Shown: positions 2,043-45,785 of the stretch, piece by piece | Numbering within the stretch: position 1 is the stretch's first letter | Layout of the letters: each line of letters begins with the position of its first letter | Assembly: GCF_029633865.1 (NCBI RefSeq) | Contig: NC_079214.1 | Location: forward strand, 27,522,724-27,586,723 | Direction: 5' to 3' | DNA length: 64,000 bases | From: Lampris incognitus | Taxonomy: Eukaryota > Chordata > Actinopteri > Lampriformes > Lampridae | Made by a program: the position numbers and the translations under genes | The notes under the pieces: model-generated | Databases searched by the model: none | Seen by the model: the letters and a program-made list of their open reading frames with translations, nothing else | Told to the model about the DNA's origin: nothing

Positions 2043-2634
2043 ATTCATAAAACAGAATAGTCTGTAGATATAACTAGTCTTACTGAGAGCAGGGCTGGGA
2101 TTCTTCACTATTTCATCTGTGTGGAGAAAACTACACTTCAGCATGAAAAAGGGTAATTGAATAAAATCACGTGCAAGGTGAGAGAGGGAGAGAGAGAGGT
2201 AGTGAACAAGCAAGAAGAAAGAGATAATAAGTCACAAGGGAAGAGAAAAGGAACAAAGGGACATGGGGGGGAAGGGTGCAAATTAATAGAGCTTGCAGAA
2301 GAAACACAACTAATTAGAGAGAGAAACAAAAGAGGGGATAAAGGAAAGCAGTATTTGTGAACATTTTTGACATCACTTAATGGGGTGTTAAAAGATTTTA
2401 AACAGAGTTTCAACAAATCGCACTGAAAAAATCCTGCCGGTTCAAACAGGGAGGTGGTGGCGGAGAAAACTGTGGAATGGGCTGTGTGGATTTACTGATG
2501 TCTCCAGCCTCCTCATCCAACAAGTCCAATAACCAATCAAACATGCAGGGCACTTTGGAGGGGGGGGGGAACGCTGTCCATTCAGGGAAAGCAGTTGATA
2601 ATTACAAAACAGTAAACAAACCACAAGTCTTTAC

Positions 2635-2689
2635 CTGTCTCCAGCCTTCTTCCTCGGGTCTCTGTGGCAATGGAGGTGCCACAGCCCAT
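2635..2689 (-). CDS. ppef1: ppef1 first coding exon, myristoylation start
   Basis: On the minus strand an ATG at 2689 opens MGCGTSIATETRGRRLET, followed after one further base by a GTAAAG donor. The exon is 55 nt (18 codons plus 1 nt), exactly the phase needed to join the IQ exon at 1047. The start has Gly2, Cys3 and Ser6, the pattern for N-myristoylation plus nearby palmitoylation, as in the human PPEF1 and PPEF2 N termini (MGCSS and MGSGTS). This suggests membrane attachment of the phosphatase. The exon is too short for standard ORF calls and was found by looking for a phase-compatible MGC start. Confidence 0.75.
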
Positions 2690-3159
2690 AATGACGAACG
2701 AGGAAGTTAAGTGGTCACATGGGTCTGTATCTAACAAGCCCGTGCCAGTGAGTCAGCTGCAGCAACAAGATCTATAGGGTATAGCACAGAGTAGCAGAAA
2801 TGGTTCATGGTGACCATAGTGTACTTGTAGTGGAGACTTATTGACAATCCTGCCTTGCTGCTTTTGTGTTGACTGTGCATTGCTCTTGATCTGCACTTGT
2901 AAAATGGCTTTCTTTCTTTCTTTCTAAATCCACAAAGACACAAAGTAACACCCTCTGGCCTTCTCTATACTTCTTTTTTTGTTTTTTTTACATGATGATA
3001 CTGGTTGCATGGCTTGGGTCCTGGGCTGTTCTGGTGGCGTCTGGACACTGCTTGGCATCCTGCACATTACATTCTTCATAAACTTTATAAGTCCATTATA
3101 ATTCTGTTTATCTTCTTTCAATGTTGTATTGAATAAATTGTGCAAACACAACATCCATT

Positions 3160-3480
3160 GCACGTCGTCCATCTTGGGAGAGAGATCCCTCCTCTGTTGC
3201 TCTCCCTGAGGTCTCTTCCTATTTTTTCTCCCTGTTAAAGGTTTTTTTTTTAAAAATGTTTATTTTTTTTAGGGAGTTGTTCCTTATCCGATGAGAGGGT
3301 CTAAGGACCGGATGTTGTGTTGCTGTAAAGCCCACTGAGGCAAATTTGTAATTTGTGATCTTGGACTGCTGGAATAGGCTCCAGCATCCCCGCGACCCTG
3401 AGAGCAGGATAAGTGGTTAAGATAATGGATGGGTGGATATTGGGCTATACAAATAAAATTGACTTGACTTGACTTGTCTC
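3160..3480 (+). repeat. LINE 3'-tail-like repeat carrying a second repeat
   Basis: It reads gagagatccctcctctgttg, then T-rich text, then gaggcaaatttgtaatttg, and ends tatacaaataaaattgac with ttgac units, a common teleost LINE 3' end. A separate repeat of about 80 bp (3363-3441, reverse of the CATCCATCCATTATCC type) interrupts it. A diverged relative lies at 4690-4925. Confidence 0.5.
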
Positions 3481-3653
3481 TCTGTCTGTTGCGAGTGTTG
3501 TGTCTGGTTTTCCTCCTGTGTGCACGAGAGCTCAATCCTTCTCTCTAGTCACTAAACTGACATTAAACTTGTGTTGATGCATTAGGGCATACCTGCTCGA
3601 TACCGCCGTCTGGGAAGGATTCCTGACATGCTACTGGGGAGGATGCTTGACTA

Positions 3654-4554
3654 CAACGATCAGCCAAAACATTAAAACTACTGCCTGATATTGTGTAGGT
3701 CCCCCTCGTGCCGCCAAAACAGCTCTGACCCGCTGAGGCATGGACTCCACAAGACCTCTGAAGGTGTTCTCTGATATTTGGCACCAAGACGTTAGCAGCA
3801 GATACTTTAAGTCCTGTAAATTGTGAGGTGAGGCCTTCATGGATTAGACTTCTTTTTCCAGCACATCCCACAGATGCTTGATCAGGTTGAGATCTGGGCA
3901 ATTTGGAGGCCAAGGCAACACCTTGAACTCTTTGTCATGTTCCTCAAACCATTCCTGGACAATGTGTGCTGTGGCAGGGCGCACTATCCTATTGAAAGAG
4001 GCCACTGCCACCAGGGAATACTGTTGCCATGAAGGGGTCATCATTGGCAATCTGACCAGTCTGCAGCTACACAGCCCCATACGCAGCAAGCTGCGACGCA
4101 CTGTGTTCTGACACTTGTCTATCATAGCCAGCATTAACTTCTTCAGCAATTGGAACTACAGTAGTTCTTCTGTGGGATTGGATCAGATGGGCTAGCCTTC
4201 GCCCCCCACATACATCAATGAGCCTTGGGAGCCCATGACCCTGTCACCAGTTCTCCTTCCTTGGACCACTTTTGGTAGGTACTGACCCCTGCATATGGGG
4301 AACACCCCACAAGATCTGTCGTTTTGGAGATGCTCTGACCCAGTCGTCTAGCCATCACAATTTGGCCCTTGTCAAAGTTGCTCAGATATTTACGACTGCC
4401 CATTTTTCCTGCTTCCAACACATCAACTTCAAGAACTGACTGTTCACTTTCTGTCTAATATATCCCACCCCTTGACAGGTGCCATTGTAATGAGAATGCT
4501 ATTCACTTATCAAAACATTAAAACCAGTGGTTTAAATGTTTTGGCTGATTGGTG
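3654..4554 (-). mobile_element. Tc1/mariner-like element, degenerate
   Basis: Inverted ends (tcagccaaaacattaaaac at the left, the reverse at the right) are flanked by TA on both sides. Minus-strand fragments encode a transposase N terminus at 4215-4421 ([20 protein letters not shown]) and a C terminus at 3844-4149 (EEHDKEFKVLPWPPNCPDLN). About 0.9 kb remains, so the middle is deleted, and the catalytic Glu position reads Lys (LIKHLWD). It is a dead copy related to the element in rs1 intron 3. Confidence 0.8.
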
Positions 4555-4689
4555 TATGTACACTTCATACTGTTTTCCTATAACTTACTGTAAATAATCA
4601 TTAAGTTTCACTTATTTTGCTATAATTTATGTGTAAATCTTATTTATTGTGCACTATTTTGCCAATTGTGTAATCATTCAGATCCTCAT

Positions 4690-4925
4690 TGGGTGGTTAT
4701 TGTGAATTGCTTGTCCACTCTGTTCACTCGGCCCCTATTACATGCCTATCTGTCCTGGACAAGGAATCCCTCCTTTGGTGCTGTACCTGAAGTTTCTCCC
4801 ATTGTTTTTTTTCCCCTGACAGTTTTTTTCCTCATCCAAACGGTGTCTAAGGATAGATGATGTATATTGTCCTCCGGGCCAAAACTGTGATTTCAGACCA
4901 TACCAATAAACCTGACATGACTCGA
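4690..4925 (+). repeat. Diverged LINE 3'-tail-like repeat
   Basis: The block order matches the repeat at 3160-3480 (aaggaatccctcctttggtg, T-rich segment, ctcatccaaacggtgtctaa, ataccaataaacctgacatg). No coding part is visible. Confidence 0.35.
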
Positions 4926-5661
4926 TATCGTTTATGAAAGTCTTTCAAAGGGACGCTTGGGTTTTGATTTCTTTCATGCCAGATAGACTTAATACATTTC
5001 ATAGGAGGCTTTACAAATTCCCCGTGTGTTACACCAACTCACATCATTGCCTACAGTGGAGATGCAGCAAGCCGGTCTGTTAGTGTCTGGGGAAAACCGT
5101 CTTTCATTCAGGCACCTTTGTGCTCTGACCATACGAGTGCTTTCAGGTGAGAATATATTTACTGTATAATCAGATTCCAATCCTGACATTTCAGCTGCAC
5201 GGTCTTCGGCAAAATTGATCAAGCCTCGATAGTGTCACTGAGACATGGAAGAACCCCCCCCCCCCCAAAACACCCGACCAGAGTTTTTAAAATACAGTTT
5301 AGCCTCAATTAAATTGTCCATCAAGGAGACGTCAGCTGTGTGATTCTCCCATCTTCACATCCTTTAAAGACCGGATGATGTACACGTGCCAGCCCTGTAA
5401 CAAGGTTATTTTAAGCTGCACGATTTGAAAACAGCAGCTGGTTGCTACGGAGGTCTAGCGACACGTTTCGAGTCACTGCACGGTGGCGTTACTTCCCTCA
5501 ACACGTACAGAGCATAACGCAAGTCCGAGTCCCTTACTGCACACCATCGCAATCTGCTCGCCTCCATTAACGCTCACATTCGTATTTACCCATTCTTGTG
5601 TGGATACGAGTCCCTTGTGCAAAGTCGCGACAGTAATAGTTGCCATTTAGAATCGTCTTAC

Positions 5662-6005
5662 CTGGATCCACTAAATCAGTGTTGCAGTAGCTTGAAGAAT
5701 TGCGCTGCAGTTTCTTCCCCAAAAACTGTTTTGTTGTTTTAACGCCGTAGGCGAGCATTAACAACGGAACCAAGGAAAACCGCCGCTGCAGCGCAAACGG
5801 GCGTCTGCCAGCTGAGGCAAACAGAGGCGGAGACGTCAGGTGAGCAAAACACCTCCGGGACGAACATGCAAAAACCACCAACCAGACATGCAGGGTCCGG
5901 AAACGGGCCGTTTTTGCCCTTTTGAACATGCACGAAAAGTTCAAGTCACTGGTATAAACGGCAAATAACGGTGGAGGAAGTCCGCATAACAAAGTCAGCT
6001 TCATG
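5662..6005 (-). other. Possible CpG-rich 5' noncoding exon or promoter
   Basis: This stretch is richer in CpG than its surroundings. On the minus strand it carries a good donor (GATCCAG/GTAAGACG) at 5662. It lies about 3 kb upstream of the ppef1 start exon on the same strand, so it could be a 5' noncoding exon of ppef1. A 145-codon open frame crosses it, but I recognise nothing in it. The remainder of 4926-6406 shows nothing I can name. Confidence 0.2.
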
Positions 6006-6406
6006 CAGGGGTATTCAGTTTTATGTCATGGAGGTCCGTGGGTTCCCTTTCCAACCCCAGCCGATTATTATTATTTTACCGATTAACACAAAGGACTACT
6101 TATTGAAATCAACTGGTGCAGTGCTGGGTTGGAAAGAAAACCCTGAGTGCACACAGCCCTCCATGGCACAAAGTAATTAAACCACTGATTTAGAGAGTCC
6201 TTTTGGGGGAGGGGAAAAGAAAAAAAACCTATTAAGTGAACAAGCAACAGGTTGATTGGATAGCCTTAAAACCTTTAATACACAGTAAAATAAAATAAAC
6301 CATTAAAAAGGAAAAACAAAACACACGCCTTAAAACCTTTACACAGTAAAATAAAATATACAATTAACAAAACAAAAAAAAGACGTCCAGCTTCAAGTAC
6401 AATATT

Positions 6407-6598
6407 TCATGCAGCCACTCTCGTGCTGGTCCTCTGCAGATTTCTCAGAGCTGCAATTATCTCTTGTTTGGTGATGATTTTATACCTGTTGGTCTTCGAT
6501 AGCCGGGAAGCCTCCGAGACCACCAGTCCAAGCCAAAGTGACTTTGGGCAAGAGGCCCGGCTTGCCAGGACAACTCCTCCAACCCCAGCACAACTGCC
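6407..6598 (-). pseudogene. Histone H2B-like exon 2
   Basis: After a TCTCTTCAG acceptor the phase-0 frame runs 63 codons to a TGA. It contains SEASRLSKTNRYKIITKQEI then IAALRNL, which aligns with [20 protein letters not shown] then QTAVRLL of H2B. Joined to exon 1, the spacing from the first helix to EASRL equals that of ordinary H2B (28 residues). The middle helix is poorly conserved and the C-terminal helix (ELAKHAVSEGTK) is missing, giving about 98 aa instead of about 125. That favours a decayed gene, or a fast-evolving germline-type variant. Confidence 0.35.
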
Positions 6599-8512: not shown

Positions 8513-11157
8513 TCAGCATGGAGGGGGGCGGATGGCCCAGCCACAACGGCTTTGCCGAACGGGTGCGGAAGCCGGGTTGCTTACAGGAGGGGCCTTAAGG
8601 ACCCTGCGACGGCGTGGGGGTAGGGCGGGCGGTGGAGGAAACTTAGGGGCATTGTTGGGGGATGGGGGCAGGGTAGGAGGACGCCCCCGCCGTGGGGGCT
8701 GGGCAAGTCCAACAGGTCGGTCCACGTCCAGGTGAGCTGGTTTGAGGCGATCTAGTGAAATGTGCTCTGGCTTGTTGTCGACTTCCATGACAAAGTGTTT
8801 TTTTCCAGTCTCCAGGACGAGGAACGGCCCGCCGTAGGGAGGCTGCAGGGGTCCACGGTGGTCGTCATGGCAGATGAAAACATATTTTGCCCATTGCAGA
8901 CTTGCGGGGATGAGAGATTGTGGGAGGCCGTGTTGCGAAGTGAGGACTGGTGCGAAAGCTCTGACGTTATCCAAGAGCATGGTCCGTTGATGGACTGCAG
9001 ACCAGGAAGCTGTGGTATTGGAGACGAAATCCCCTGGGACCCGCAGCAGCTGTCCATAAACCAATTCAGCGGACGAGGACTGGCGGTCCTCCTTAGGGGC
9101 GATCCTGAGGCCCAGCATGACCCACTGGAGCATGCCGACCCAGCTGCAATTCTTGAGGCTGGCCTGAAGGGCGGCCTTCATAGAGCGATGAAACCACTCG
9201 CACAACCCATTGGCCTGCGGGTGTTATGGTGGACCTTCACCCCTATGCTCTCTGCGACTGGGTTTCAGATCTCAGATGCAAACTGTGAGCCCCGGTCCGA
9301 GGAGAGGTCAAATGGGTTGCTGAACCGGGCGACCCAGGTCCCGATGAACGCCTGGGCTACGTCGGTGGATGTTGTCAATGACAGTGGGATGGCTTCTGGC
9401 CATCAAGTGGTCCTGTTCACCATGGTGAGGAGGTAAGTAAAACCGTGGGTCGGGGGCAGGGGGCCCACTAGGTCCACGTTTACTCGGTTGAACCTCCTTT
9501 CGGGCACCAGGAACTGTGCCAGGGTGGCTCTGGTGTGGCAGTTTAGAGCACTGACACTACACGCAGGTGTCAGCCCAGTCTCTCACGTCTTTTTTGAGCC
9601 CATGCCAGACAAACTTGGCTGCCTGCCACTAGTCTTTGAGACGACTTTTTGCCAGGGTGGGAGAGGCCATGGAAGGTGTCGAAAATACGCCGCCTCCAGC
9701 CGGTGGGAATGACGGGCCGGGGCTGACCCGTGGAGATGTCGCACAGGAGTGTGGTGCCAGTGTCGTCGAAAGCCATGTCCTCTAACTGCAGCCCTGTGAC
9801 AGCCGTCCTGAAAACCTGCACATCTGGGTCGGCGGCCTGGTCAGCTGCCATACGGTCATAGTCAGGCTCAAGTGGACGGCCCCCGCAATGGCCCGGGAGA
9901 GGCAGTTGGCGACAAGGTTGGTTTTGCCAGCAACATGCTGTACGTCCGTGGTGAACTCCAAGATGAAGGAGAGCTGTCGTTGCTGGTTGGCGGACCACAG
10001 CTCAGCTACCTTGGCCATGGCGAACATCAGTGGTTTGTGATCTACAAACACCGTGAACTGGCCGGCCTCCAGCAGGGAATGGAAGTGTCGAACAGCGAGG
10101 TAGAGAGCGAGGAGCTCCCGATCGAAGGTGCTATACGTCTGTTCGCTGGGGCGTTACTGTTGGCTGGAGAAAGTGAGCGGCTGCCAAGCGCCGTTCACCA
10201 ACTGCTCGTGCACCATCCCAACTGCATAGTGCGAAGCGTCTGCAGTAATGGCGATTGGAGCCTTGGGTGACAGGTGCACCATCATTGTTGCATCAGCCAG
10301 AGCAGCTTTAGTGTCCACAAACGCCTTGTCCCTCTCCGCAGACCAGTCCACAGTGTGTTTGGTGGCCCTGCCATTTCAGGGCCTCATACAGGGGTCGCAT
10401 GAGTTGAGCAGCTCAAGGGATAAAGTGGTGGTAAAAGTTCACCATGCCGAGGAACTTCTGTAGGGACTTGACTGTTAGCGGTCGCCGGAAGTTCACGACG
10501 GTGTCCACCTTTGACGGGACACGTACCACCCCATCTTTGGTGATGGTGGTCAGCCTGAACTGGCACTCGGCTGGATTGACAATCAGCCCGTGCTGGCTGA
10601 GCCGCTCGAAAAGAGTCCGAAGGTGGGACAGGTGTTCCATTTTGAAGGTGCTGGTGACGAGGATGTCATCTAGATAGACGAAAATGAAAGGCAGGTCCCG
10701 TAGCACCAAATCCATGAGGCACTGAAATGTCTGCGCAACGTTCTTGAGGCCAAACGGCATGCATAGGTACTCGAACAGTCCAAATGGGATGCTCATCGCC
10801 ATTTTGGGGACATCCAGTGGGTGGACAGGCACCTGATGGTAACCATGGACAAGGTCCACTTTGGAAAAGATGACTTTTCCAGCCTGGTGGGCAGAAAAAT
10901 CCTGGATGTGTGGGACTGGGTGGCATCCGGTGTTGATGTATTGTTGAGTCGGTGGTAATCACTGCACGGGCGCCACCCGCCACCAGGCTTTGGGACGATG
11001 TGGAGGGGTGAAGCCCACGGGCTGTTGGAGTAGTGAATGATGCCAAGACGCTCCATGTTCTTGAACTCCTCCCTGGTGGCAGTGAGCTTGGCCGGGTTGA
11101 GGAATCAAGCCCGAGCATAGACTGGTGGGCCAGTGGTGGCGATGTGGTGCTCCACTC
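8513..11157 (-). pseudogene. Gypsy C pol: RT, RNase H and integrase, broken
   Basis: Minus-strand pieces run in pol order: reverse transcriptase ([47 protein letters not shown]), RNase H (FVDHKPLMFAMAKVAELWSA), then integrase C terminus (RFHRSMKAALQ relative, ELVYGQLLRVPGDF). Many frame changes separate them, so no polyprotein can be made. The N-terminal pol portion lies on the far side of the Academ-like insert at 17954-18503. Confidence 0.85.
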
Positions 11158-11160
11158 TGT

Positions 11161-11741
11161 TAGTCCATGGGCCAGAGCCCAAAATTTCCAATTTCGGTAC
11201 ACTCAAGGTGGCAAAACTTACTTATAATTTTTGAAAGGATCCATGTCTGTAGATGATATTTTGGTATGATAACCATTCCTGAGTGGCAGCTGTATCACAG
11301 TTATCAGCTCATGAAGTTAACCACCCCCTAAAGTAAATTGCATTTTAGACGCTGGTGCATATCCTGGTTTAGCCTCATGGTCAGGACATTTTTCAATGTT
11401 CTATAATATTGTCTTTGGTATCATTTTAAAGGGGACCTTCTTAGCTTTCATTCAAGCCCTGTTGTGGATATTTCTCACAAATATAGAGGTCACTTGAGCT
11501 CTTCAACCCGTCAATAACACACATCTTTCTGCAATGTTCGCCTAAACTATATACTTTCTTTTAGCCCTATGGCATCTAGGAATATCAGGGACACAAAACA
11601 CAAAAACTGGAATACTCACAGGACTGTAAAGATTCAGGAAATGTATAATATACCCATACTATTTCATTGGGTGAGGTGATTGTGAACCTTAAATTAGAAG
11701 GGCATTATTACTAAGAAACTAACTAGACCAAAGCCAGTTAG
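11161..11741 (+). repeat. Left TIR of Academ-like element
   Basis: 581 bp, matching the reverse complement of 17403-17950 apart from small indels. A 10-base gap lies just inside the tip, where the left end has extra bases before tttcggtacactc. A diverged second copy of the tip sequence starts at 11739. Confidence 0.9.
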
Positions 11742-12418
11742 TCCATGGGTCAGACCAGATATCGATATCACCCAAGGTGACACAACTTCACTGGTGCCAT
11801 TTTATTTGGTACACTAACAGAAGTAAAATAATACATGATAACCTTTCCAAATGAGCAGCTATTTCATTTTTCTTTCAGGAAACCTGTTTCTGTGCCTCTC
11901 ACGATTGTGTATTTGCCCAGATTTTTACAAATATAGCATTTCAACACCCCTGGTACTGATTAGCCTAGCTTAAACTCTGGGACAGTTCTTAGTTGGCCAA
12001 CAACCAAGGATAACCAGTACTGTGTACTTCCATTCATTGTGCTAAGCTAGGCTAACGTGCAGCCAGATAGCTTTCTACTAAACACATATAGAGGAAACTG
12101 GTATCTATCTTCTTGTCTCACTCTGGAGAAGATTGTAAGCTAATTTCCCATAATGTTAGCATGTTCTTTTAATGTATATGTTAATATGATTAGTTAAAGT
12201 GGCTACGAGGAACTTTCATCTTGTGTTGATTTTAGCGGCCTCATGTGGACAAAATACAGCTGTTGCATAGCAACTAGGTAATGTATCTATTTGTGGCTAT
12301 GTAAGATAAATAATGGTAATATGACGCTGGTGAAGCAAAGTAAACTTTGTTTTAGTAGTGTTCATACACCTAAGTTATATGTATTTGTTTGTATGTGGCA
12401 GGTGAAAACTGACAGAAT

Positions 12419-15400
12419 ATGGCCACTGGTGAACAAGCAAGTTTTTACCCAATACCAAAGCGCCCACGGGTGGAGTTTATTATCCACTGTTCTGATGATA
12501 CAGATAAGCTGGTTTCACTACAAAGTGTCGACTCATGGAGAACTCTGCTCAGGGCAGCTCAGATACGAAATCATGCACCAGTTTTGAAACTGGCCAAAGA
12601 CATTCCTGAGGGACAGATTCCAGCAATCTACTACCACAGAAAGTGTCGCATTATCTTCACTATGAAGCAAATTCTTGATGGCCTCCTTGCAAAAGAAAAG
12701 AAAAGTTGTGTCTCTGCTGAAGAGAAACAATCTAAGAGAGTAGCTCGACATGCTCCAAGTACATCTAGGACTTATGATGCAGAGTGCATATTTTGTCAGA
12801 AAAACAGCAAATATTCCAAGAGACAGAATACGAGAGAAGTACTGGTGCAGTGTCGAGAACTGCGAGCTGATGCAAAGATCAGGAGTGCAGCCACAAAGAA
12901 AAGGGACAGCAGAATCCTTGCCATTGTGAGTAGAGACCTTGTAGCAGCTGAAGGGCACTACCACAGGTCATGCTATAGACTTTACACCAAAGAAGAGGTT
13001 TCCAAAGGAGAGGTTGCCAGCAATGAAGATGATGATGCTGCAGTCCAGTATGAAGCTGCTGTGAATAAGGCATACAATGAGCTGCTCCTCTTCATCAGGA
13101 TGGAGCTTTTTGGCAATCCTCAAGTGATGACAATGACTGATCTCTCTTCTAGACTGGTAGCTTCAATGAACTCCCAAGGCATTGCCCAAGTCAAGGAATC
13201 AACCAAGAAGCACATAAGGCGAAACCTGGAGAGTGAGTTTGCTGGAGCCTTGCAGATATTCCCTGATGAGAAAGGAAAATTCCTCCTCTATCCCGATAAC
13301 TTGTCCATGAGGGAACTTGCCAAAGAAAATCAGTCTCTCAAAAGGGAGCTGCAGACCCTGAAAAGTGTCAGTGCACAAGATGTTATAGCCAAAGCAGCCA
13401 TCAAATTGAGAGCAGACATTAAAAGTCAAGATGTTCCTCAAACCTGGCCGCCTGAAGTCAAACCAGAAGCAGAATGTCCTACCATTCCAGAGTCGCTCAT
13501 TATCTTCCTGTACTCTCTACTCACAGGCTCAAATGATCCTGATCATGCATCCCAGAGAGTGCAGTGCCTTCTGCAGTCATTTGGCCATGACATAGTATAT
13601 GCAGTGACATGTGGAAATACCAAGCCTTCCAAGCACATTGTTCTGCCATTCAGTGTCAAATCGTTGACAGGAAATGTAGAGTTGATAAACATCCTCAACC
13701 GACTTGGTCACAGTGTGTCCTATTCACAGATGGAAGAGATCAACACTGCCCTGTGTCTCCAGAAACTCTCATCATCAGGGAGTGGCATTGCCCTTCCAGC
13801 TAACATCCATCCTGGCATATTCACAACTTTAGCCTGGGACAATATCGACCGTCTTGAAGAAACTGTCAGTGGTGAGGGAACATCTCACAGAGTCAATGGG
13901 ATTGCTGTGCAAGCAAAGCCAGTCAACCCACTTCCTGTCCAACCCATGCCCACTGTTCCCAAAACAAAGAAGAGAAGCATTGATGGACCCCCACCAATGT
14001 TACCAACTTACAATGCTGGACAACGGGTAGGGCCACCACAAAGCAAAAAGTCAGATGCCGATACTGCAGCCAATACTAAGCTTGCCAGAGAGAAAAACCT
14101 TCTTTGGGTCCTAGCACGCATGTCACAACAAGAAGAACAGTCAGTCAGCAGCTGGACAGGCTTCAACATCCTGACTCGAGGAGAGATGACGGTCATCCCC
14201 GACAATATAGGCTATCTGCCTACCATCAATGCTCCAGCGACACAAATGTCTACTGTCAACGAGGTGCTTAACCAGTCACTGAGCATCATGCAGTGCTTAG
14301 GCCTGAGGAAGATTGTCTGTGTCTTTGACCAAGCCCTGTATGCGAAGGCTGTCGAGATCACATGGAAACACCATGACAAGTTCCATGATATCATCGTTAG
14401 GCTTGGGGTATTCCACATCATCTGCACACTGCTGGCAATAATAGGAAAGCGTTTCCAAGATGCTGGACTCAAAGACCTCTGCATTGAGTCTGGCATGATT
14501 GCAGAAGGCTCAATTGCTGGTGTTATGGATGGCCGCAAGTACAACAGGGCAGTGCGACTACACAAGCTCCTGTATGAGGCTCTCATGCGACTGACCTTGA
14601 ATGGTTTCCTGTCCTGGTTGGAAGAAACTCACAGGAATGACATGGTTCACCTGAATGAGACACCGAAGACCATTGACAGCCTTGGGAAAGAAGTCTCACA
14701 ACATGCTTTGAAGGAGGTCCTCAAGAACAGCTCTTGTACACGCATCAAGGATCTATTTGAAGTCTACCGTGAGTTCCTTAGAGGTGGAAACGGCAGCCTC
14801 TCGAACTTCTGGATGTCCTATTTGGACATGGTTGAAATCTTGTTGGGGCTCATCCGAGCATCCAGAGAGGGAGACTGGATGCTACACTTGGCTAGCATTC
14901 GAGCAATGATCCCATGGTGCTTTGCTTATGACAGGATGAATTATGCACGCTACCTCCCCTACTACTACGCCCAGATGTCTGAGCTGCCCATCACACACCC
15001 AGATGTGTACACAGAATTCATGGAAGGAGGCTTCTCAGTCCAACTGGGCTCCACCAATCCCTTTGGCCGAATCCCTGTTGACCAAGCTATAGAAGAAATG
15101 GTGAACAAAGACACCCAAACAGCTGGAGGGACAAAGGGATTCAGCTTGAAGCCAGGAGCTGTGACCAAATATTATCTCACAGCTGAGTATAGAAGCATGT
15201 ACCTCAGACAGCTGAGAGACCTGACAGGTCAAGGCAGGTGCAAATGGTCTCATCCAGATCTACAGAGTCCAAGGATCAAGAGAGATGAAGCAGATGTCCA
15301 GTCTCTCATGGACCTTATGGAGAATAACTGGCTCAATCCTATGTCCCCTGATGAGATTGATTTGGTTAGCCTCTCCACTGGCAACATGGCTCCACCTGAT

Positions 15401-17095
15401 GTGACCATAGATCTCTTGAGAGCTCTTGAGAAAGGAGAAGAGGCCTACCAAGCATTCCAGCAAACAAGGTTAGATGCAGACCCACCACCTGTGAAATTCC
15501 ACGACAAGATGACCAAGCAAAGTCTGAAAACATTCTCCAATGTCAGCACAAAACAAGCTCATGGAAAGAAAGCACAGGATGTGGTTCTGAAGGCAGATAG
15601 AAACCTTTTCAGTCACATGATCCTGGTGGCTGAAAGCAGGAAGGTGAATCTGAAGGATGTCCTTGCCTACCCATTGGGCCCACTACTATGGGCACTGGCA
15701 AATGCTGATGGGTCCTTACGAAAAACAAACAAGGCTGCACTTGCCAGAGAGCTTGAAAAGAATGTATCTCCTGCAGAAGACATCCCAATCCCATCTACTT
15801 CCATCATTGATGGGATGAGCCTGGTCCAAAAAATGAATGGCAACAACAAAACCTTTGCACAGGTGGCAGAGTCAGCCTTGACCCAGGTCCTCCATGAGGG
15901 AGCACAGAGTGGGAGGATTGATGTTGTTTTTGATGTCTATCACCAGACTTCGATCAAAGATGCTGAACGACTGAACCGGGGTGGAGACATCACTCTCCAG
16001 TACAAGAATCTTGCGGGGGGACACCACGTCCAGCAGTGGAGAAAATTTCTGTGCAGTTCCTCCAACAAGACCAGTCTCATCAAGTTTCTGGTGGAAGAGT
16101 GGAAACTCCCACGATACAGAGCTATGCTGCATGGCAAGGTGTTGTACATGACCTGTGAGGAAACCTGCTACAAGTTGACAGAAGATGGGTGTGAGGAAGC
16201 AGCAGAACTGCACTCCACACATGAAGAAGCTGACACCCGTCTGCTCCTGCATGCATTGCATGCAGCAAATGCGGGCTCAAAGTCAGTTATCATCACAGCT
16301 GAGGACACTGATGTCATGGTGCTTTGTCTTGGCTTCCAGAAGGACATCACCTGTCCCATCTACCAGAAGTGTGGGACTCAGAACCGCACACGGTTTGTCG
16401 ACATCACCAAACTGGCAAGTTCACTTGGAGACAGCATCTGTGACAGCCTAATTGGCTTACATGCCTTCACAGGCTGCGACACTGTCAGTGCATTCGCTGG
16501 TCGAGGGAAGCTGAATTCCCTGAAGATAGTGAGAAAGCACACTTCCTGCCAAGAGACTTTTAGTCAACTGGGACAGACATGGAATGTGAGTGATGAGCTG
16601 TTCCAGAAAATTGAGCAGTTCACCTGTCGGATGTATGTTGCTAATAGCAGCACTGCTGAGGTGAACAAACTGCGTTACCAGCTCTTCTGCACCAAAAGGG
16701 GAGAGGTTGAGTCCAGCCAGCTGCCACCATGTAGAGACTGTCTCTTTATGCATGTTCAATGAGCCAACTATCAGGCAGCAATATGGAAGTGCTGTCTGCA
16801 GGCTAACCCTGTGGTGCCAAGCCCTACTGAGTATGGATGGACAGACGATGAAGGCAAGCTGGCCATTTACTGGATGCGCTCCCCACCTGCACCAGATGTG
16901 GTCTTGGAAATGCTAACATGCAAGTGTGTGCATTCATGCAAAATGCCAAGCTGCATGTGCCTGTCAAATGGACTTCCATGCACAGACATGTGCAGGTTAC
17001 AGACCTGCAGTAACCAAAAACAGCAGGATGGTCCAGAACTGGACTTTGAACTTGGGGAGTCAGATGATGAGAGAAACGAGCAGTTTGATGAATGA
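12419..17095 (+). pseudogene. Academ-like transposase/nuclease, one internal stop
   Basis: The ATG frame runs 1,447 codons to a TGA at 16760-16762, then stays open in the same frame to a second TGA at 17093-17095. The ancestral protein was therefore about 1,558 aa, and the stop is consistent with a CGA-to-TGA change. In order: a zinc-binding-like region (C123-x2-C126 to H180/C185); a possible DDE-type core (candidates D474 in WDNID, D637 in FDQALYAKA, E696 in AEGSIAG); then three acidic motifs, HEEADTR (about 1268-1274), AEDTDV (about 1294-1299) and GCDTVSAF (about 1352-1359), with the order and look of XPG/FEN nucleases. After the internal stop comes a Cys-rich tail (CKCVHSCKMPSCMC) like CXC domains. 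No introns are evident. The catalytic assignments are inference. Confidence 0.75.
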
Positions 17096-17402
17096 CAGTG
17101 TGATGATTCTGATGGTATTACTGTGGTAGTAGTCTATTGATGCACAGGATGTTGATTCTGGACTTGGTTACCCAGAGCTTGATAACAATAATGTAACCAT
17201 ATTCACATATACCCATTACCCTACCCATTACCATTACATATACCCACTAATGATATGGGATTACATGTATCATTGACTAAGTATATGTAAATGTCAATGT
17301 TGTTTAAAATATTAAAATAGTTCATTACCTCACTATGGTATTCCTTTTTATCATGTATTTTGATTGTGTATTTAAACAAATGTATAGAGACCAGTTTGTG
17401 AC

Positions 17403-17950
17403 CTAACTGGCTTTGGTCTAGTTCTCATTTAAGGCTCACAATCACCTCACACAATGAAATAGTATGGGTATATTATACATTTTCTGAATCTTTACAGTCC
17501 TGTGAGTATTCCAGTTTTTGTGTTTTGTGTCCCTGATATTCCTAGATGCCACAGGGCTAAAAGAAAGTATATAGTTTAGGCGAAAATTGCAGAAAGATGT
17601 GTGTTATTGACGGGTTGAAGAGCTCAAGTGACCTCTACATTTGTGAGAAATATCCACAACAGGGCTTGAATGAAAGCTAAGAAGGTCCCCTTTAAAATGA
17701 TACCAAAGACAATATTATAGAACATTGAAAAATGTCCTGACCATGAGGCTAAACCAGGATATGCACCAGCGTCTAAAATGCAATTTAGTTTAGCGGGTGG
17801 TTAACTTCATGAGCTGATAACTGTAATACAGCTGCCACTCAGGAATGGTTATCATACCAAAATATCATCTACAGACATGGATCCTTTCAAAAATTATAAG
17901 TAAGTTTTGCCACCTTGAGTGTACCGAAATATCGTCTGGCCCATGGACTA
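17403..17950 (-). repeat. Right TIR of Academ-like element
   Basis: 548 bp. Homology to the left TIR stops at the block read on minus as gaccaaagccagttag. Confidence 0.9.
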
Positions 17951-17953
17951 TGT

Positions 17954-18503
17954 GCTTGGTGGTGGAAGACGAGAAGGTGGGCTGCGTGAGGACCGGGAAC
18001 TCAGCGAGAAGCCGGAGAAAATTGTCTGTGGCGGAGAGCACTCTAGACAGTCTGATGGAGTCCAGTCCGTTGAGAGTACACACATACGAACTGAAAGTGA
18101 CAGCGTTGATCAAGCGGCGATTTTGACATCCACTAGCAGCCCATAGGCGCATAGGTAATCCGCGCCGAAGAGGGAGACGGTCACTTTTACCTTGACAAAT
18201 TACCAACCGAACCACTGTCCTCCGAAACACAGCTCCTCGTACCTAGTGCCATAAGTGCGGATGGGGCTGCCGTTAGCGGCTTCCATGGAGGGGGGGGGCA
18301 TATCCGCAGGACAGGATGTCTACTCTCGATGCGGGCAGGACGCTCCTCTGCGCGCCCGTGTCGCACAGGAACCGCCGTCCAGAAATGGAGTCTTTGATTA
18401 AAAGCAGCCTGTTCGGCCGACGCACATGGCCATTACTGAGCGCCGGTCCCGGCGTTTCCCTCCGCACTTGGCCTTGGGTCCAAACTTTGCGTGGTAAAAA
18501 CAC
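17954..18503 (-). pseudogene. Gypsy C pol N terminus (aspartic protease)
   Basis: Minus-strand frames show [19 protein letters not shown] with the D-T-G protease motif, then AVTFSSYVCTLNG and LLAEFPVLTQPTFSSSTTKH, where the Academ-like insert interrupts. Several frame changes are present. Confidence 0.8.
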
Positions 18504-19810: not shown

Positions 19811-20050
19811 TGTAGAGCCGAAGGAACGGAGAAGACCATAGGTTCACACTTTAGCCGTGTAGGCAACTTTCTTTAATCCCGGTAAATCAGAGAGACAACG
19901 AAACCACAGCTCGACTGAGCGGAGGCGGCAAGAATAACCAGAAAACTGGCTGAGCAACCATAACTTAACCCTGCGTTAACCTGCCAGGGCAACCCTGACT
20001 TAACCCTTAGTTCCTGGGGTGAATTCTATCCCCAATACGTGTCCACCACA
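19811..20050 (-). repeat. 3' LTR of Gypsy A
   Basis: 240 bp, TGTAGAGCCG to GTCCACCACA in plus orientation, nearly identical to 22871-23111. Confidence 0.95.
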
Positions 20051-21309
20051 TGAGCCCCCCCAGAATTCGCCCTAGTAATCGAAGTCAGGCAGGCGCGGGG
20101 GACGACAGGCCGTCCGCGGCGGCTCCGGGTAACAGGTGCCGGAGTGTCACTGGGAGGCATTGACGCGGGCCTGTGGAGGTCGGTCTGAGGAGCAGAAGAG
20201 GCAGCGCGGGCCTCCACGGGGGGAGGAGGCGGAGCCGGGGGACGACCGCGACGAGGAGGTTGGGCTAACTCCAACGGATGCGTCAAGTCCAGGTGTGCGG
20301 GTTTAACTCGGTCCACTGAAACATGCTCAGCCGTGCCCCCAAAATCCACCACCAGGTGCTTAGTTCCCCATTCCAGGACGTGGAAGGGGCCGTCATAAGG
20401 GGGTTGCAGAGGGGGGCGGTGTGCGTCGTGACGGATGAACACGTAGTCCGCTGACAGCAGACCTGGGGGCACCTGGGACACCGGAGCGCCGTGTTGGGCG
20501 GTAGGGACGGGTGTGAAAGCTCTGACCCCGTCCAGCAAGGAGGCTCGTTGGTCCACAGCTGACCAGGGACGCGTTGCGTTGGGCATGAAATCGCCTGGGA
20601 CTCGCAGCGGCGTGCCGTACACCAGCTCCGCAGAGGAGGCTTGTAGGTCTTCCTTCGGGGTGGTCCGCAGGCCCAGCATGACCCATGGGAGCTTGTCAAC
20701 CCAGTTGCAGTCCTTGAGAGTAGCCCGAAGCGCAGCCTTCATGGACCGGTGGAAGCGCTCATATAGGCCGTTCGCTTGAGGGTGGTAGGCGGTAGTGCGG
20801 TGAAGCTTGACGCCCAGAGCCTCACCCACAGCATTCCATAGCTCTGAGGTAAACTGTGGCCCGCGGTCAGATGAAAGGTCGGAAGGCGTACCGAAACGTG
20901 AGACCCACGACCCAATAAAAGCCCGGGCCACATCAGCAGACGTCGTGGATGCCAGGGGAACAGCTTCAGGCCAGCGCGTAGTCCTGTCCACCACAGTGAA
21001 GAGGTAGGTGAACCCATGGGAGGGGGGTAGGGGACCAACCAGGTCGACGTGGACATGTTCAAATCGTCTCTCCGGCACTGCGAAGCGTTCCAGGGGCGCC
21101 TTAATGTGGCGGTGTATCGCCGGGTTGACGATCAGCCCATGCTGGCTGAGGCGTATGAAGAGGGCGTGAAGATGGGACAGGTGTTCCTCCTCGGAGGCGC
21201 TGGCGATGAGTATGTCGTCCAAATAGACGAAGATGAAAGGAAGGGCACGGAGCACTGAATCCATCAGCCGCTGAAAGGACTGGGCCGCGTTTTTGAGTCC
21301 AAATGGCAT
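20026..21309 (-). pseudogene. Gypsy A pol C-terminal part, with deletion
   Basis: The frame begins in the reverse transcriptase (MPFGLKNAAQSF, YLDDILIAS) and jumps from HGLIVNPA straight to IHRHIKAPLERF in the integrase. The rest of RT, RNase H and the integrase zinc finger are deleted in frame. The integrase core (SSDRGPQFTSEL, AYHPQANGL) remains. A one-base loss in a C run near the 3' end destroys the normal stop and runs the frame into the LTR. Confidence 0.9.
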
Positions 21310-21319
21310 TCGTGGGAAT

Positions 21320-22249
21320 TCAAATAGGCCGAATGGGGGTAGTCACCGCTGTCTTGGGGATGTCCGAGGGGTGCACGGGAACTTGATGACAACCACGGAG
21401 CAGGTCGAGTTTTGAGAAGACGCGTTTGCCAGACAGGTTTGCAGAAAAGTCCTGGATATGCGGGACAGGATAGCGGTCGGGCGTGGTGGCGTCATTTAGT
21501 CGGCGGTAGTCCCCGCATGGGCGCCAACCTCCATCAGACTTAGCGACGCTGTGGAGTGGGGACGCCCACGGGCTGTCAGAGCGGCGGAAGATCCCCATGC
21601 ATTCCAGGTGCTCGAACTCAGACTTGGCAATGGCGAGTTTGGCGGGGTCGAGACGCCTGGCTCTGGCATAGACCGGGGGCCCCTTCGTAGCAATGTGATG
21701 CTCCACCCCATGCTTAGCGGTGGGTGCAGAGAAGGTAGGCTGGGTGAGGTCAGGGAACTCAGCGAGGAGGCAGTTGAACTTGTCTGCCTCTGAGAGAGAG
21801 TTGGCTAGACCTGCATAGGCCGCTTCCCCCCGCGTACATGCGAAGGAGGAGAAGGTTAAGGCATCGACCAGACGGCTGTTCTGAATGTCCACTAGCAAAC
21901 CGTAAGCGCACAAAAAATCAGCTCCGAGGAGGGGAAGCGTTACATTGGCCATGACGAACTCCCACGTGAAACGTTGTCCACCAAAACACAGTTCTACAGA
22001 CCGCACGCCGTAGGTGTGGATAGGGCTGCCGTCAGCCGTCGCCAACTGGGGGCCCCGCTCCCCGCCCATGATGTCGACGTCAGTAGCAGGGAGCACGCTT
22101 CTCTGTGCGCCCGTGTCACAGAGAAATCGCCGACCGGAGATGGTGTCGAGGATGAAGAGTAGCCTGCTCGTATCGCCAACACTCATGGCCGCTACTGAGT
22201 GTTGGTCCTCTCGTTTCCCGTCGGCCTGTAGTTGCAGGGGGAACGGCAC
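21320..22249 (-). pseudogene. Gypsy A pol N-terminal part: protease and RT start
   Basis: It contains [18 protein letters not shown] (protease), the connecting region and the RT fingers ([20 protein letters not shown]). An extra C in the run encoding TTPF shifts the frame at about 21325, just before the RT palm. The frame starts overlapping gag in the -1 phase, as in the 42-kb copy. Confidence 0.9.
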
Positions 22250-22818
22250 CGTTTAGCTTTCGCACCAAATCGAGCGTGGTACATACAGAGTCCAGAGGGC
22301 TTGTAGCGGTCTGATGCTGTGGCGCCACCGTCGGGCCACGCCCGCGATGTCGGCGGGGGGCCAGTGAAGGTAGGAGCCAGCACCCCGGCATGGGAGGAAC
22401 GTTGTGTAGCGACGAAGAATCGGTCAGCCTCCTTTGCCAGCTCACGGGGATCAGTGATGGTGGAGTTAGCGAGCGCAGTCTGGACGTGGGGCGGCATGCT
22501 GCGCAGAAACAGCTCCATAAACAGGAAACATGGCTTTTCTTGACCCAGTAGGTTTAACATCCTGCTCATTAGCTCCGATGGTTTGCCATCTCCCAAGCCC
22601 TGAATTGCGAAGAGGCGACGTGCTCTCTCCGTTGTTGACCGTTCAAAAGTTTCAAGGAGGAGATTTTTAAGTGCGGCGTATTTACCATCGGCCGGTGGGT
22701 TGGTTATGAAACCGCTTATGTCTCTGAGCGCGAACTGTGCCTCAGCCTGCGCGAACCATGTAGCCGCGGAAGACTCCCAAAACTCCGGCAGTTTAATTGC
22801 AACGGCGTTCGTAGCCAT
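22192..22818 (-). CDS. Gypsy A gag, CHCC finger
   Basis: An open 208-codon gag frame: [59 protein letters not shown] and a C-terminal [18 protein letters not shown]. That Cys-His-Cys-Cys arrangement, with the tRNA-Trp primer site, is typical of the CsRn1 clade of Ty3/Gypsy as I know it. About 22 residues after LRDI are missing compared with the copy at 41.7 kb. Confidence 0.85.
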
Positions 22819-22870
22819 AATGTGTGTGGTTTCAGAAAACTTATCCGAAAACCGACGTCGGGGTCACCAG

Positions 22871-23111
22871 TGTAGAGCCGAAGGAACGGAGAAGACCGTA
22901 GGTTCACACTTTAGCCGTGGAGGCAACTTTCTTTAATCCACGGTAAATCAGAGAGACAACAAAACCACAGCTCGACGGAGCGGAGGCGGCAAGAATAACC
23001 AGAAAACTGGCCGGACAACCATAACTTAACCCTGCATTAACCTGCCAGGGCAACCCTGACTTAACCCTTAGTTCCTGGGGTGAATTCTATCCCCAATACG
23101 TGTCCACCACA
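22871..23111 (-). repeat. 5' LTR of Gypsy A
   Basis: 241 bp. The primer-binding site adjoins its inner end at about 22856-22870. Confidence 0.95.
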
Positions 23112-23482
23112 AGACCACACATCTTTGCTTCTACTATAGCTATAATGACAAAAATGGTGTCAAAGTATAAATTTTTGTGGTCAATTAATTCAATAAAATA
23201 GGCTTTAAAGCTAAAAACACAATAGTTTTCAACTTACCATGACAATTTGGGGTAAAATACGCGAATTTCGTTAAAAGAAATAAGGGAAATCAGGGTGACT
23301 TTCTATATATTTCCTTTAATAACTTTAATTTTGTTTTGAAAATGCGTTATTTTAAAGGTCCACTCACTGAAACAACAACTTAAATTGTTTTTAAAGCGGT
23401 GTAAACACTTCTATGCATGACATGTGTGTCCGTCCGCGAGTACAGGGCTGGCCCTAGGGTTTTGGTGGCTCTAAACCAAATC

Positions 23483-35020: not shown

Positions 35021-36239
35021 CACTCACTGGCCACTTTATTAGGTACATCTTGCTAGTACCGGGTTGGACCCCCTTTTGCCTTCAGAACTGCCTTAATCCT
35101 TCGTGGCATAGATTCAACAAGGTACTGGAAACATTCCTCAGAGAGTTTGGTCCATATTGACATGATAGCATCACGCAGTTGCTGCAGATTTGTCAGCTGC
35201 ACATCCATGACGCGAATCTCCCGGTCCACCACATCCCAAAGGTGCTCTATTGGATTGAGATCTGGTGACTGTGGAGGCCATTTGAGTACAGTGGACTCAT
35301 TGTCATGTTCAAGAAACCAGTCTGAGATGATTCGAGCTTTATGACATGGCGCGTTATCCTGCTGGAAGTAGCCATCAGAAGATGGGAACACTGTGGTCAT
35401 AAAGGGATGGACATGGTCAGCAACAATACTCAGGTAGGCTGTGGCATTGACACGATGCTCAATTGGTACTAAGGGGCCCAAAGTGTGCCAAGTAAATATC
35501 CCCCACACCATTACACCACCACCACCAGCCTGAACCGTTGATACAAGGCAGGATGGATTCATGCTTCCATGTTGTTGACGCCAAATTCTGACCCTACCAT
35601 CCGAATGTCGCAGCAGAAATCGAGACTCATCAGACCAGGCAACGTTTTTCCAATCTTCTATTGTCCAATTTTGGTGAGCCTGTGCGAATTGTAGCCTCAG
35701 TTTCCTGTTCTTAGCTGACAGGAGTGGCACCCGGTGTGGTCTTCTGCTGCTGTAGCCCATCTGCCTCAAGGTTCGACATGTTGTGTGTTCAGAGATGCTC
35801 TTCTGCATACCTCGGTTGTAATGAGTGGTTATTTGAGTTACTGTTGCCTTTCTATCAGCTCGAACCAGTCTGGCCATTCTCCTCTGACCTCTGGCATCAA
35901 CAAGGCATTTCGCCCACAGAACTGCCGCTCACTGGATATTTCCTCTTTTTCGGACCATTCTCTGTAAACCCTAGAGATGGTTGTGCGTGAAAATCCCAGT
36001 AGATCAGCAGTTTCTGAAATACTCAGACCAGCCCGTCTGGCACCAACAACCATGCCACGTTCAAAGTCACTTAAATCACCTTTCTTCCCCATTCTGATGC
36101 TCGGTTTGAACTGCAGCAGATCGTCTTGACCATGTCTACATGCCTAAATGCATTGAGTTGCTGCCATGTGATTGGCTGATTAGAAATTTGCGTTAACGAG
36201 CAATTGGACAGGTGTGCCTAAAAAAGTGGCCGGTGAGTG
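35021..36239 (-). mobile_element. Tc1/mariner DD36E element, frameshifted copy
   Basis: 1,219 bp with inverted tips CACTCACTGGCCACTTTATT and its reverse, flanked by TA. The minus-strand transposase is split in two frames, 35838-36092 (N terminus, [20 protein letters not shown]) and 35053-35877, by an indel near residue 65. Otherwise it is nearly identical to the intact copy at 52993-54215. Confidence 0.92.
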
Positions 36240-41371: not shown

Positions 41372-41612
41372 TGTGGTGGACACGTATTGGGGACAGAATT
41401 CATCCCAGGAGCTAAGGGTTAAGTCATGGTTGCCCTGGCAGGTTAACGCAGGGTTAAGTTATGGTTGTCCAGCCAGTTTTCTGGTTATTCTTGCCGCCTC
41501 CGCTCCGTCGAGCTGTGGTTTTGTTGTCTCTCTGATTTACCGTGGATTAAAGAAAGTTGCCTACACGGCTAAAGTGTGAACCTACGGTCTTCTCCGTTCC
41601 TTCGGCTCTACA
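41372..41612 (+). repeat. 5' LTR of Gypsy B
   Basis: TGTGGTGGACACG to CGGCTCTACA. I see about three differences from the 3' LTR over 241 bp. Confidence 0.97.
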
Positions 41613-41664
41613 CTGGTGACCCCGACGTCGGTTTTCGGATAATTTTTCTGAAACCACACACATT

Positions 41665-42359
41665 ATGGCTACGAACGCCGTTGCAATTAAACTGCCGGAG
41701 TTTTGGGAGTCTTCCGCGGCTACGTGGTTCACACAGGCTGAGGCACAGTTCGCGCTCAGAGACATTAACAGCAGACGAGACCAGGTACTACTACGTAGTG
41801 GCAACGCTGGGGTGCGCTACGGCTTCCAGGATAAGTGGTTTCATAACCAACCCACCGGCCGATGGTAAATACGCCGCACTTAAACATCTCCTCCTTGAAA
41901 CTTTTGAACTGTCAACAACGGAGAGAGCACGTCGCCTCTTCGCAATTCAGGGCTTGGGAGATGGCAAACCATCGGAGCTAATGAGCAGGATGTTAAACCT
42001 ACTGGGTCAAGAACAGCCATGTTTCGTGTTTATGGAGCTGTTTCTGCGCAACATGCCGCCCCACGTCCAGACTGCGCTCGCTAACTCCACCATCACTGAT
42101 CCCCGTGAGCTGGCAAAGGAGGCTGACCGATTCTTCGTCGCTACACAACGTTCCTCCCATGCCGGGGTGCTGGCTCCTACCTTCACTGGCCCCCCCGCCG
42201 ACATCGCGGGCGTGGCCCGATGGTGGCGCCACAGCATCAGACCGCTACAAGCCCTCTGGACTCTGTATGTACCACGCTCGATTTGGTGCGAAAGCTAAAC
42301 GGTGCCGTTCCCCCTGTTACTACAGGCCGACGGGAAACGAGAGTGCCAACACTCAGTAG
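41665..42359 (+). pseudogene. Gypsy B gag with two frameshifts
   Basis: It starts [19 protein letters not shown] at 41665. An extra A near 41767 (ATTAACAGC where ATTACAGC keeps frame) moves the sequence to the next frame until an extra C in the run near 42191 (seven C against six in Gypsy A) moves it again. It ends in the CHCC finger [18 protein letters not shown] and a TAG at 42359. Unlike Gypsy A it keeps about 22 residues after LRDI. Gag and pol overlap in the -1 phase. Confidence 0.85.
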
Positions 42360-45300: not shown

Positions 45301-45523
45301 CCTGGACTTGACGCAGCCGTTGGAGTTAGCCCAACCTCCTCGTCGCGGTCGTCCCCCGGCTCCGCCTCCTCCCCCCGTGGAGGCCCGCGCTGCCTCTTCT
45401 GCTCCTCAGGCCGACCTCCACAGGCCCGCGTCAATGCCTCCCAGAGACACTCCGGCCCCTGTTACCCGGAGCCGCCGCGGACGGCCTGTCGTCCCCCCGC
45501 GCCTGCCTGACTTCGATTACTAG
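42302..45523 (+). CDS. Gypsy B pol polyprotein, intact
   Basis: 1,073 codons in order: aspartic protease ([12 protein letters not shown], Asp about 45); reverse transcriptase ([17 protein letters not shown], palm YLDDILIAS at about 342-350); RNase H (TTDASDYAVGAVHEQ about 492, FTAYVDHKPLTFAMSKMAE); integrase with HHCC zinc finger (HGLSHPGG about 683 to CVSCQRAK about 718), catalytic D,D35E (VDLVGPL about 750, SSDRGPQF about 809, CERFHRS about 845), then GPF-type module YDGPFRVLE. The first ATG is given, but translation probably enters by -1 frameshifting from gag. It ends with TAG just before the polypurine tract. All catalytic motifs are present. Confidence 0.95.
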   Translation: MPFPLLLQADGKRECQHSVVAMSVGDTSRLLFILDTISGRRFLCDTGAQRSMLPATDVDIMGGERAPQLATADGSPIHTYGVRSVELCFGGQRFTWEFVMANVTLPLLGADFLCAYGLLVDIQNSRLVDALTFSSFACTRGEAAYAGLANSLSEADKFNCLLAEFPDLTQPTFSAPTAKHGVEHHIATKGPPVYARAKRLDPAKLAIAKSEFEHLERMGIIRRSDSPWASPLHIVAKPDGGWHPCGDYRRLNDATTPDRYPVPHIQDFAANLSGKRVFSKVDLVRGYHQVPVHPSDIPKTAVTTPFGLFEFLRMPFGLKNAAQSFQRLMDSVLRGLPFIFVYLDDILIASASEEEHLSHLHALFTRLSQHGLIVNPAKCRFGLTAIDFLGHRITGDGAVPLPSKMEVVAAFPRPQTAHALREFIGMVTFYHRFIPRAAFIIRPLYEALKGMSPNQAVDWTAERDHAFTETKAALSQATLLAHPSPTAPISITTDASDYAVGAVHEQWVGGAWQPLPFFSRQLTPRERKYSTFDRELLGLWLAVRHFRFLLEGREFTAYVDHKPLTFAMSKMAEPWSARQQRQLSYISEFTTDIQHIAGKSNQVADCLSRAVIGAVHLGLDYAQMAADQATDPSILHLRTSDTGLCLQDVPFSDTGVTLLCDVSTGQPRPIVPHSWRRPVFEAVHGLSHPGGKPSVRLTSAKFVWEGLKRDVKAWADSCVSCQRAKIHRHIKAPLERFAVPERRFDHVHVDLVGPLPPSHGFTYLFTVVDRTTCWPEAVPLASTMSADVARAFIGSWVSRFGTPSDLSSDRGPQFTSELWNAVGEALGVKLHRTTAYHPQANGLCERFHRSMKAALRATLKDCNWVDKLPWVMLGLRTAPKEDLQASSAELVYGTPLRVPGDFMPNATRPWSAVDQRASLLDGVRAFTPVPTAQHGAPVSQVPPGLQSADYVFIRHDAHRPPLQPPYDGPFRVLERGTKHLVVDFGGTAEHVSVDRVKPAHLDLTQPLELAQPPRRGRPPAPPPPPVEARAASSAPQADLHRPASMPPRDTPAPVTRSRRGRPVVPPRLPDFDY

Positions 45524-45544
45524 GGCGAATTCTGGGGGGGCTCA

Positions 45545-45785
45545 TGTGGTGGACACGTATTGGGGACAGAATTCAACCCAGGAACTAAGGGTTAAGTCAT
45601 GGTTGCCCTGGCAGGTTAACGCAGGGTTAAGTTATGGTTGTCCAGCCAGTTTTCTGGTTATTCTTGCCGCCTCCGCTCAGTCGAGCTGTGGTTTTGTTGT
45701 CTCTCTGATTTACCGTGGATTAAAGAAAGTTGCCTACACGGCTAAAGTGTGAACCTACGGTCTTCTCCGTTCCTTCGGCTCTACA
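45545..45785 (+). repeat. 3' LTR of Gypsy B
   Basis: 241 bp, followed by the target duplication GTAC. The stretch 45790-46190 is decayed P-element interior with nothing recognisable. Confidence 0.97.

Follow-up and report, generated by a model that had tools for sequence, protein, structure and literature searches.

A transposon whose protein carries a nuclease beside its transposase raises the question of what the second enzyme does for the element. This question is posed by a 64,000-nucleotide stretch of the Lampris incognitus genome (NC_079214.1, positions 27,522,724 to 27,586,723 of the forward strand; hereafter the window), where positions 11161 to 17950 hold a recently active transposon of a known but little-studied type, AcademX, whose single large protein appears to join a transposase to a nuclease of the flap-cutting type. 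Our analysis indicates that the window very probably contains a recently inserted, now truncated copy from a young AcademX-lineage family of DNA transposons of the autonomous type. In the literature found, cited here for the passages available, the role of the AcademX nuclease is given only as a suggested link to the length of the target-site duplication (TSD), and a text search returned no paper with both Academ and XPG and none with DUF6589.

Insertion of the element and its copies in the genome

The element and its insertion site comprise the following features.

11161 to 17950, + strand: whole AcademX-type element, 6,790 bp, delimited by its repeats, tips and empty-site alignment
11158 to 11160, no strand: left TSD, TGT, from flank comparison
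17951 to 17953, no strand: right TSD, TGT, from flank comparison
11161 to 11741, + strand: left terminal inverted repeat (TIR), 581 bp, with tip TAGTCCATGGGCCAGA
17403 to 17950, - strand: right TIR, 548 bp
11739 to 11788, + strand: second occurrence of the tip sequence (TAGTCCATGGGTCAGA...), on the inner border of the left repeat; present in all 32 copies
10861 to 11160, - strand: interrupted Gypsy element, tested part of the left flank, from empty-site alignment
17954 to 18253, - strand: interrupted Gypsy element, tested part of the right flank, from empty-site alignment

The element ends in TAGTCC/GGACTA tips, both arms start with TAGTCCATGGGCCAGA, and TGT stands on each side. For an empty-site test, 300 nt of each flank were joined with either one TGT or both and aligned to other Gypsy copies in the window. 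With a single TGT, the joined flanks could be aligned to two Gypsy copies with no gap where they meet (592 columns, 67.4-67.6% identity, E 2e-48 and 8e-47), whereas with both TGTs a 3-nt gap fell exactly at the junction. Because the joined flanks match uninterrupted Gypsy copies, these results directly demonstrate an insertion with a 3-bp duplication, in agreement with an earlier note on this DNA, which had claimed TAGTCC tips and a TGT duplication within a Gypsy sequence; its estimate of 550-580 bp for the inverted repeats likewise agrees with the measured 581 and 548 bp. Alignment of the left with the right arm gave 537 identities, 10 mismatches and 35 gap columns. Ten extra bases near the tip were present in the left and absent from the right arm in 15 of the 18 copies checked; the remaining three are L045, which has a mutated ATG tag and was read in reverse, and L009 and L046, which gave no score for one side or for both. 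Since the variants that distinguish the arms are found family-wide, the arms are not being homogenised to identity. On the right repeat, the inner edge showed no counterpart of the second tip sequence, which may mark where an older and shorter element ended. Elsewhere in the genome, C1:131921376-131921817 shares 83% identity with a portion of the left repeat and perhaps belongs to a related family.

At least 57 distinct near-full-length copies were found in the same 1.48-Gb genome, as counted from two queries that returned 32 places each, seven of them common by coordinates; the first set, which includes the window, has 99-100% identity. As the genome searches score the best candidates only, such counts are lower bounds. 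A search with the C-terminal part gave at least 150 places, some belonging to the same family, and a TIR search, in which frequent words were skipped, gave 18 places and is unusable as a copy count. Thirty-two copies, picked by protein score and including the window copy, were fetched. Identity to the window coding sequence is 99.3-99.6% in the other 31, pairwise divergence among the 32 is 0.30-0.64%, each copy has 7-15 differences from the majority sequence, and 309 of 331 variants occur in a single copy. This star-like variation, read without a tree, points to a recent burst. Silent changes account for 107 of the 309 singletons, compared with about 28% expected; nothing is concluded from this, the sample being biased by its selection on protein score. 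The aligned frame has no internal stop in 25 of the 32 copies, which become 23 when L005, incomplete at its tail, and L026, shifted near its end (stop at 1531), are set aside.

Exact 3-bp TSDs flank 26 of the 29 copies in which both ends were found; in L005, L046 and L019, which are left out of this count, one end was not found. The remaining three are L044, with a 5-bp duplication (AGCTT), L049, with one of 9 bp (CCACACACA), and L029, which is mismatched. When flanks were re-paired at random in 10,000 trials, the mean was 1.7 and the maximum 9 matches of 29. The examination of other copies, proposed in the earlier note as a way to define the ends and the TSD length, returned the same ends and, in 26 of 29, the same length. 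The 26 sites have a weak base preference, with A/T at 62 of 78 TSD positions, G/C at 39 of 52 adjoining positions and about 50% G+C further out; the strict S-WWW-S pattern is found at only 5 of 26 sites.

TSDs of 2-5 bp also occur in other superfamilies, and membership of Academ is assigned here by description; both points would suit an element of another short-TSD superfamily (e.g. EnSpm or Transib-like) that acquired a nuclease. We regard this origin as very improbable, for the combination of a 3-bp TSD with a nuclease is that described for AcademX in the passage available (PMC10045372), and Academ has been reported from teleosts, namely zebrafish, medaka and stickleback (PMC4746887). That passage gives TSDs of 3 or 4 bp for AcademX and of 9 or 10 bp for AcademH, a difference which its author relates to the encoded nuclease or helicase (PMC10045372). 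Academ elements are also recorded in Xiphophorus (PMC4705583), those of bivalves have a mean length of 5,565 bp (PMC10294476), and Academ is listed among the superfamilies with a DDD/E transposase (PMC9587614). The TSD and the predicted nuclease of the family fit AcademX, and the earlier classification is supported by the 3-bp TSD, by the TIRs and by a FEN/XPG-type region within a large protein.

The encoded protein and its candidate catalytic regions

The protein of the window copy is laid out as follows.

12419 to 16762, + strand: transposase-nuclease reading frame of the window copy, 1,447 aa
16760 to 16762, + strand: TGA in frame at codon 1448, a stop shared by three of the 32 copies (L004, which is the window copy, L020 and L047), the other 29 having Arg
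16763 to 17095, + strand: C-terminal frame past the stop, with a CXC-like Cys cluster at residues 1501-1530, untranslated in the window copy
12488 to 12973, + strand: N-terminal part with two Cys/His groups, C24/H73/C76 and C123/C126/H182/C185
13838 to 15094, + strand: putative DDE transposase core, with D474 or D477, D637, H666 and E892, identical in the relative L055
15791 to 16558, + strand (approximate limits): FEN/XPG/Xrn-like nuclease region, with D1131, D1172, E1270, D1272, D1296, D1298 and D1354

Past the TGA, the frame from the ATG at 12419 stays open to 17095 and includes the Cys-rich tail. The 1,558 codons claimed by the earlier note are therefore the length of the family protein, but the window copy itself ends at codon 1448; similarly, the CXC-like tail lies where it had been placed (from residue 1501), but is untranslated here. 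The three copies that have the codon-1448 stop lie at different sites with TSDs TGT, TCG and ATA, so a truncated subfamily moved after the mutation. This suggests that tail-less copies spread, either in cis with the shortened protein or in trans. The N-terminal Cys/His groups are possible zinc-binding modules for DNA contact. In sequence-only searches of Pfam, NCBIfam and PDB, the protein and its pieces gave no match at threshold; sub-threshold matches to Kazal_1, HALZ, Phage_clamp_A, TcA_TcB_BD and tail-fibre chains were taken as chance.

A degenerate scan of 84,980 prokaryote species genomes for HEEADTR-like codons led to two contigs with relatives of the protein. L055, a 6.5-kb contig in a metagenome-assembled genome of Planctomycetota, encodes at 2112-6512 a nearly complete AcademX-type protein that is colinear with that of copy L008 (34% identity over 1,469 columns, motifs kept), and is probably stray eukaryote DNA in the bin. 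L056, from a Bathymodiolus gill symbiont assembly and probably mussel host DNA, carries only the nuclease and tail part, across three frames. The CXC-like Cys cluster is found in both. When a piece of L056 was used as the query in the genome that holds the window family, the best place reached 38% identity and 117 bits, compared with 31-32% and about 85 bits for the window family; places closer to L056 than to the window family suggest that further AcademX-like families probably exist there. Scans of viral contigs and tblastn searches of phages and plasmids returned no relative; among pattern matches in viral contigs, three were checked and rejected, and none of the 207 from another scan was confirmed.

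The nuclease region contains the ordered acids D, D, E.D, D.D and G.D, which is the FEN order, a pattern also visible in the FEN-type proteins that we examined. HEEADTR (1268), AEDTDV (1294) and GCDTVSAF (1352) all stand where the earlier note had put them, and their XPG/FEN order holds, but the region begins about 110 residues earlier than it had assumed, with IIDG at 1129 and VVFD at 1169-1172. All seven acids are identical in L055. In the 32 copies, a sample biased towards such conservation by its selection on protein score, D1131, E1270, D1272, D1296 and D1354 are kept in every copy and D1172 and D1298 in 31 each. A single-sequence AlphaFold model reached a mean predicted local distance difference test score of only 32; a partial AlphaFold model has Xrn1, T5 FEN, FEN1 and EXO1 among its structural neighbours, weakly. 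Beyond its first alignment, hhalign yielded only spurious or uninformative alternatives, and its global mode gave no result. The nuclease model also weakly matches Allo54 proteins of fish herpesviruses (ranks 2 and 6; E 0.12 and 0.22).

These data have to be weighed against the possibility that the C-terminal acids do not form a working nuclease, either because the region retains a PIN-like fold to bind DNA or because the acids belong to other motifs. Several results count against a nuclease: neither the protein nor L055 matches Pfam XPG_N or XPG_I at the curated cut-off, no PDB sequence match to XPG was obtained, the model is only partial, and nitrilases score as high in it as every nuclease neighbour except Xrn1. 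This tie slightly lowers our confidence in the overall reading of the element. On the other side stand the identity of all seven expected acids in L055 and their retention in 31 or 32 of the 32 score-selected copies, and we consider a region without nuclease activity quite unlikely. The structure prediction which the earlier note had proposed as a check for a PIN/XPG fold leans towards a FEN/Xrn fold, from a weak and partial model in which nitrilases tie.

For the transposase, a putative DDE core can be placed from sequence motifs at D474 or D477 (DNID), D637 (VxD) and E892 (AIExTxNKDT). The candidate residues and H666 are present in 32 of 32 copies, except D477, which is present in 30. L055 matches Pfam DUF6589 over part of the core (E 0.0021, below the cut-off), and no DUF6589 match was obtained for the window-family protein in the Pfam search; DUF6589 may be related to AcademH. 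Some transposases have a helical insert after the second D, and for this reason E892 was preferred over E690, which is also identical in L055.

Possible roles of the nuclease

In the sequence of events that we propose, the element ends would be cut by the DDE core and joined to target DNA with a stagger of 3 bp, while the Cys/His modules and the CXC tail would bind DNA. At the ends of the element, the nuclease would cut or trim the non-transferred (5') strand, as TnsA acts beside TnsB, and gap filling would then yield the 3-bp TSD. Action on the 5' strand at the ends is the most likely of the roles considered for the nuclease, and we put it forward tentatively. A fuller model, that of a single-chain transposase with two nucleases, in which one strand is cut and joined by the DDE core and the other is cut or trimmed by the FEN/Xrn-like region, this trimming helping to set the 3-bp TSD that distinguishes AcademX from the helicase-bearing AcademH (9-10 bp), the rare 9- and 5-bp duplications being failures of trimming, is speculative and seems unlikely in this complete form.

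Alternatively, the nuclease may act after integration, removing flaps or trimming gaps at the new insertion and so aiding host repair. Enzymes of the FEN type have 5' flaps and gaps as substrates, as established for FEN1 and EXO1, the model has T5 FEN, FEN1 and Xrn1 among its neighbours, and exact 3-bp TSDs in 26 of 29 copies would accord with such an activity; however, host FEN1 could serve any transposon, which would leave the possession of a nuclease by AcademX unexplained, and we think this role somewhat unlikely. The nuclease may instead determine TSD length itself by trimming a longer transposase stagger (about 9 bp, as in AcademH) to 3 bp. This would agree with the AcademH and AcademX TSD lengths and their tie to helicase and nuclease (PMC10045372), and with the duplications of L049 and L044. 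Only these two of 29 copies deviate in this way, however, the 9-bp case of L049 lies in a CA-rich stretch where coincidence or slippage is possible, and the left part of L044 is shortened (its tip precedes the ATG by 1,224 nt rather than 1,258 nt), so that such trimming appears improbable. The role of the nuclease would be open to test in this family, many of whose copies in a single genome are uninterrupted: the near-identical copies, clean TSDs and mapped candidate catalytic residues provide material for an excision or transposition assay of AcademX.

Neighbouring features and comparison with known systems

Elsewhere in the window, a Gypsy element at 41372-45785 carries, close to its two ends, repeats of 241 bp that are 99% identical, together with a pol frame of 1,073 aa, and a second copy of it lies in the opposite orientation at about 19811-23114. 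Two copies of a Tc1-type transposase, oppositely oriented and about 98% identical, occupy 35053-35877 and 53140-54183, and an array of diverged GGTTAGG-rich minisatellite repeats lies at 49672-50205. Scanning the window for Rfam families and tRNAs yielded no matches.

AcademX, a lineage reportedly defined in a 2020 paper by Kojima, has a nuclease of the XPG type, and transposase and nuclease in one protein are its known plan; the apparent fusion described here is therefore unusual, not new. The element resembles AcademX in its 3-bp TSD, its TIRs (581 and 548 bp) and the putative nuclease region within the element protein, and no difference was found by description, reference Academ sequences not having been compared directly. 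With FEN1, XPG, EXO1, T5 FEN and Xrn1, it shares the ordered acids, and these enzymes are among the best neighbours of the partial model; it differs in having E.D for E.E, with 98 residues from D1172 to E1270, in lying below Pfam and PDB sequence detection, and in being part of a transposon protein. In Tn7, TnsA cuts beside the DDE protein TnsB, so that a DDE enzyme may be paired with a second nuclease in both systems; TnsA differs in being a protein of its own, similar to restriction enzymes and with another fold, and the functional parallel is an analogy. AcademH belongs to the same superfamily, and a shared core is possible, as judged from the weak DUF6589 match of L055 only; unlike the present family, in which Pfam and NCBIfam searches of the protein found no helicase match and a 9-bp TSD occurs in one of 29 copies (L049), AcademH has a helicase and TSDs of 9-10 bp according to the passage available (PMC10045372). 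AcademX nucleases are called simply 'nuclease' in that passage. KolobokE, KolobokD and KolobokP are likewise DDD/E transposons with an added nuclease, but their nucleases have other folds, namely lambda exonuclease-like, DnaQ and His-Me (PMC9587614).
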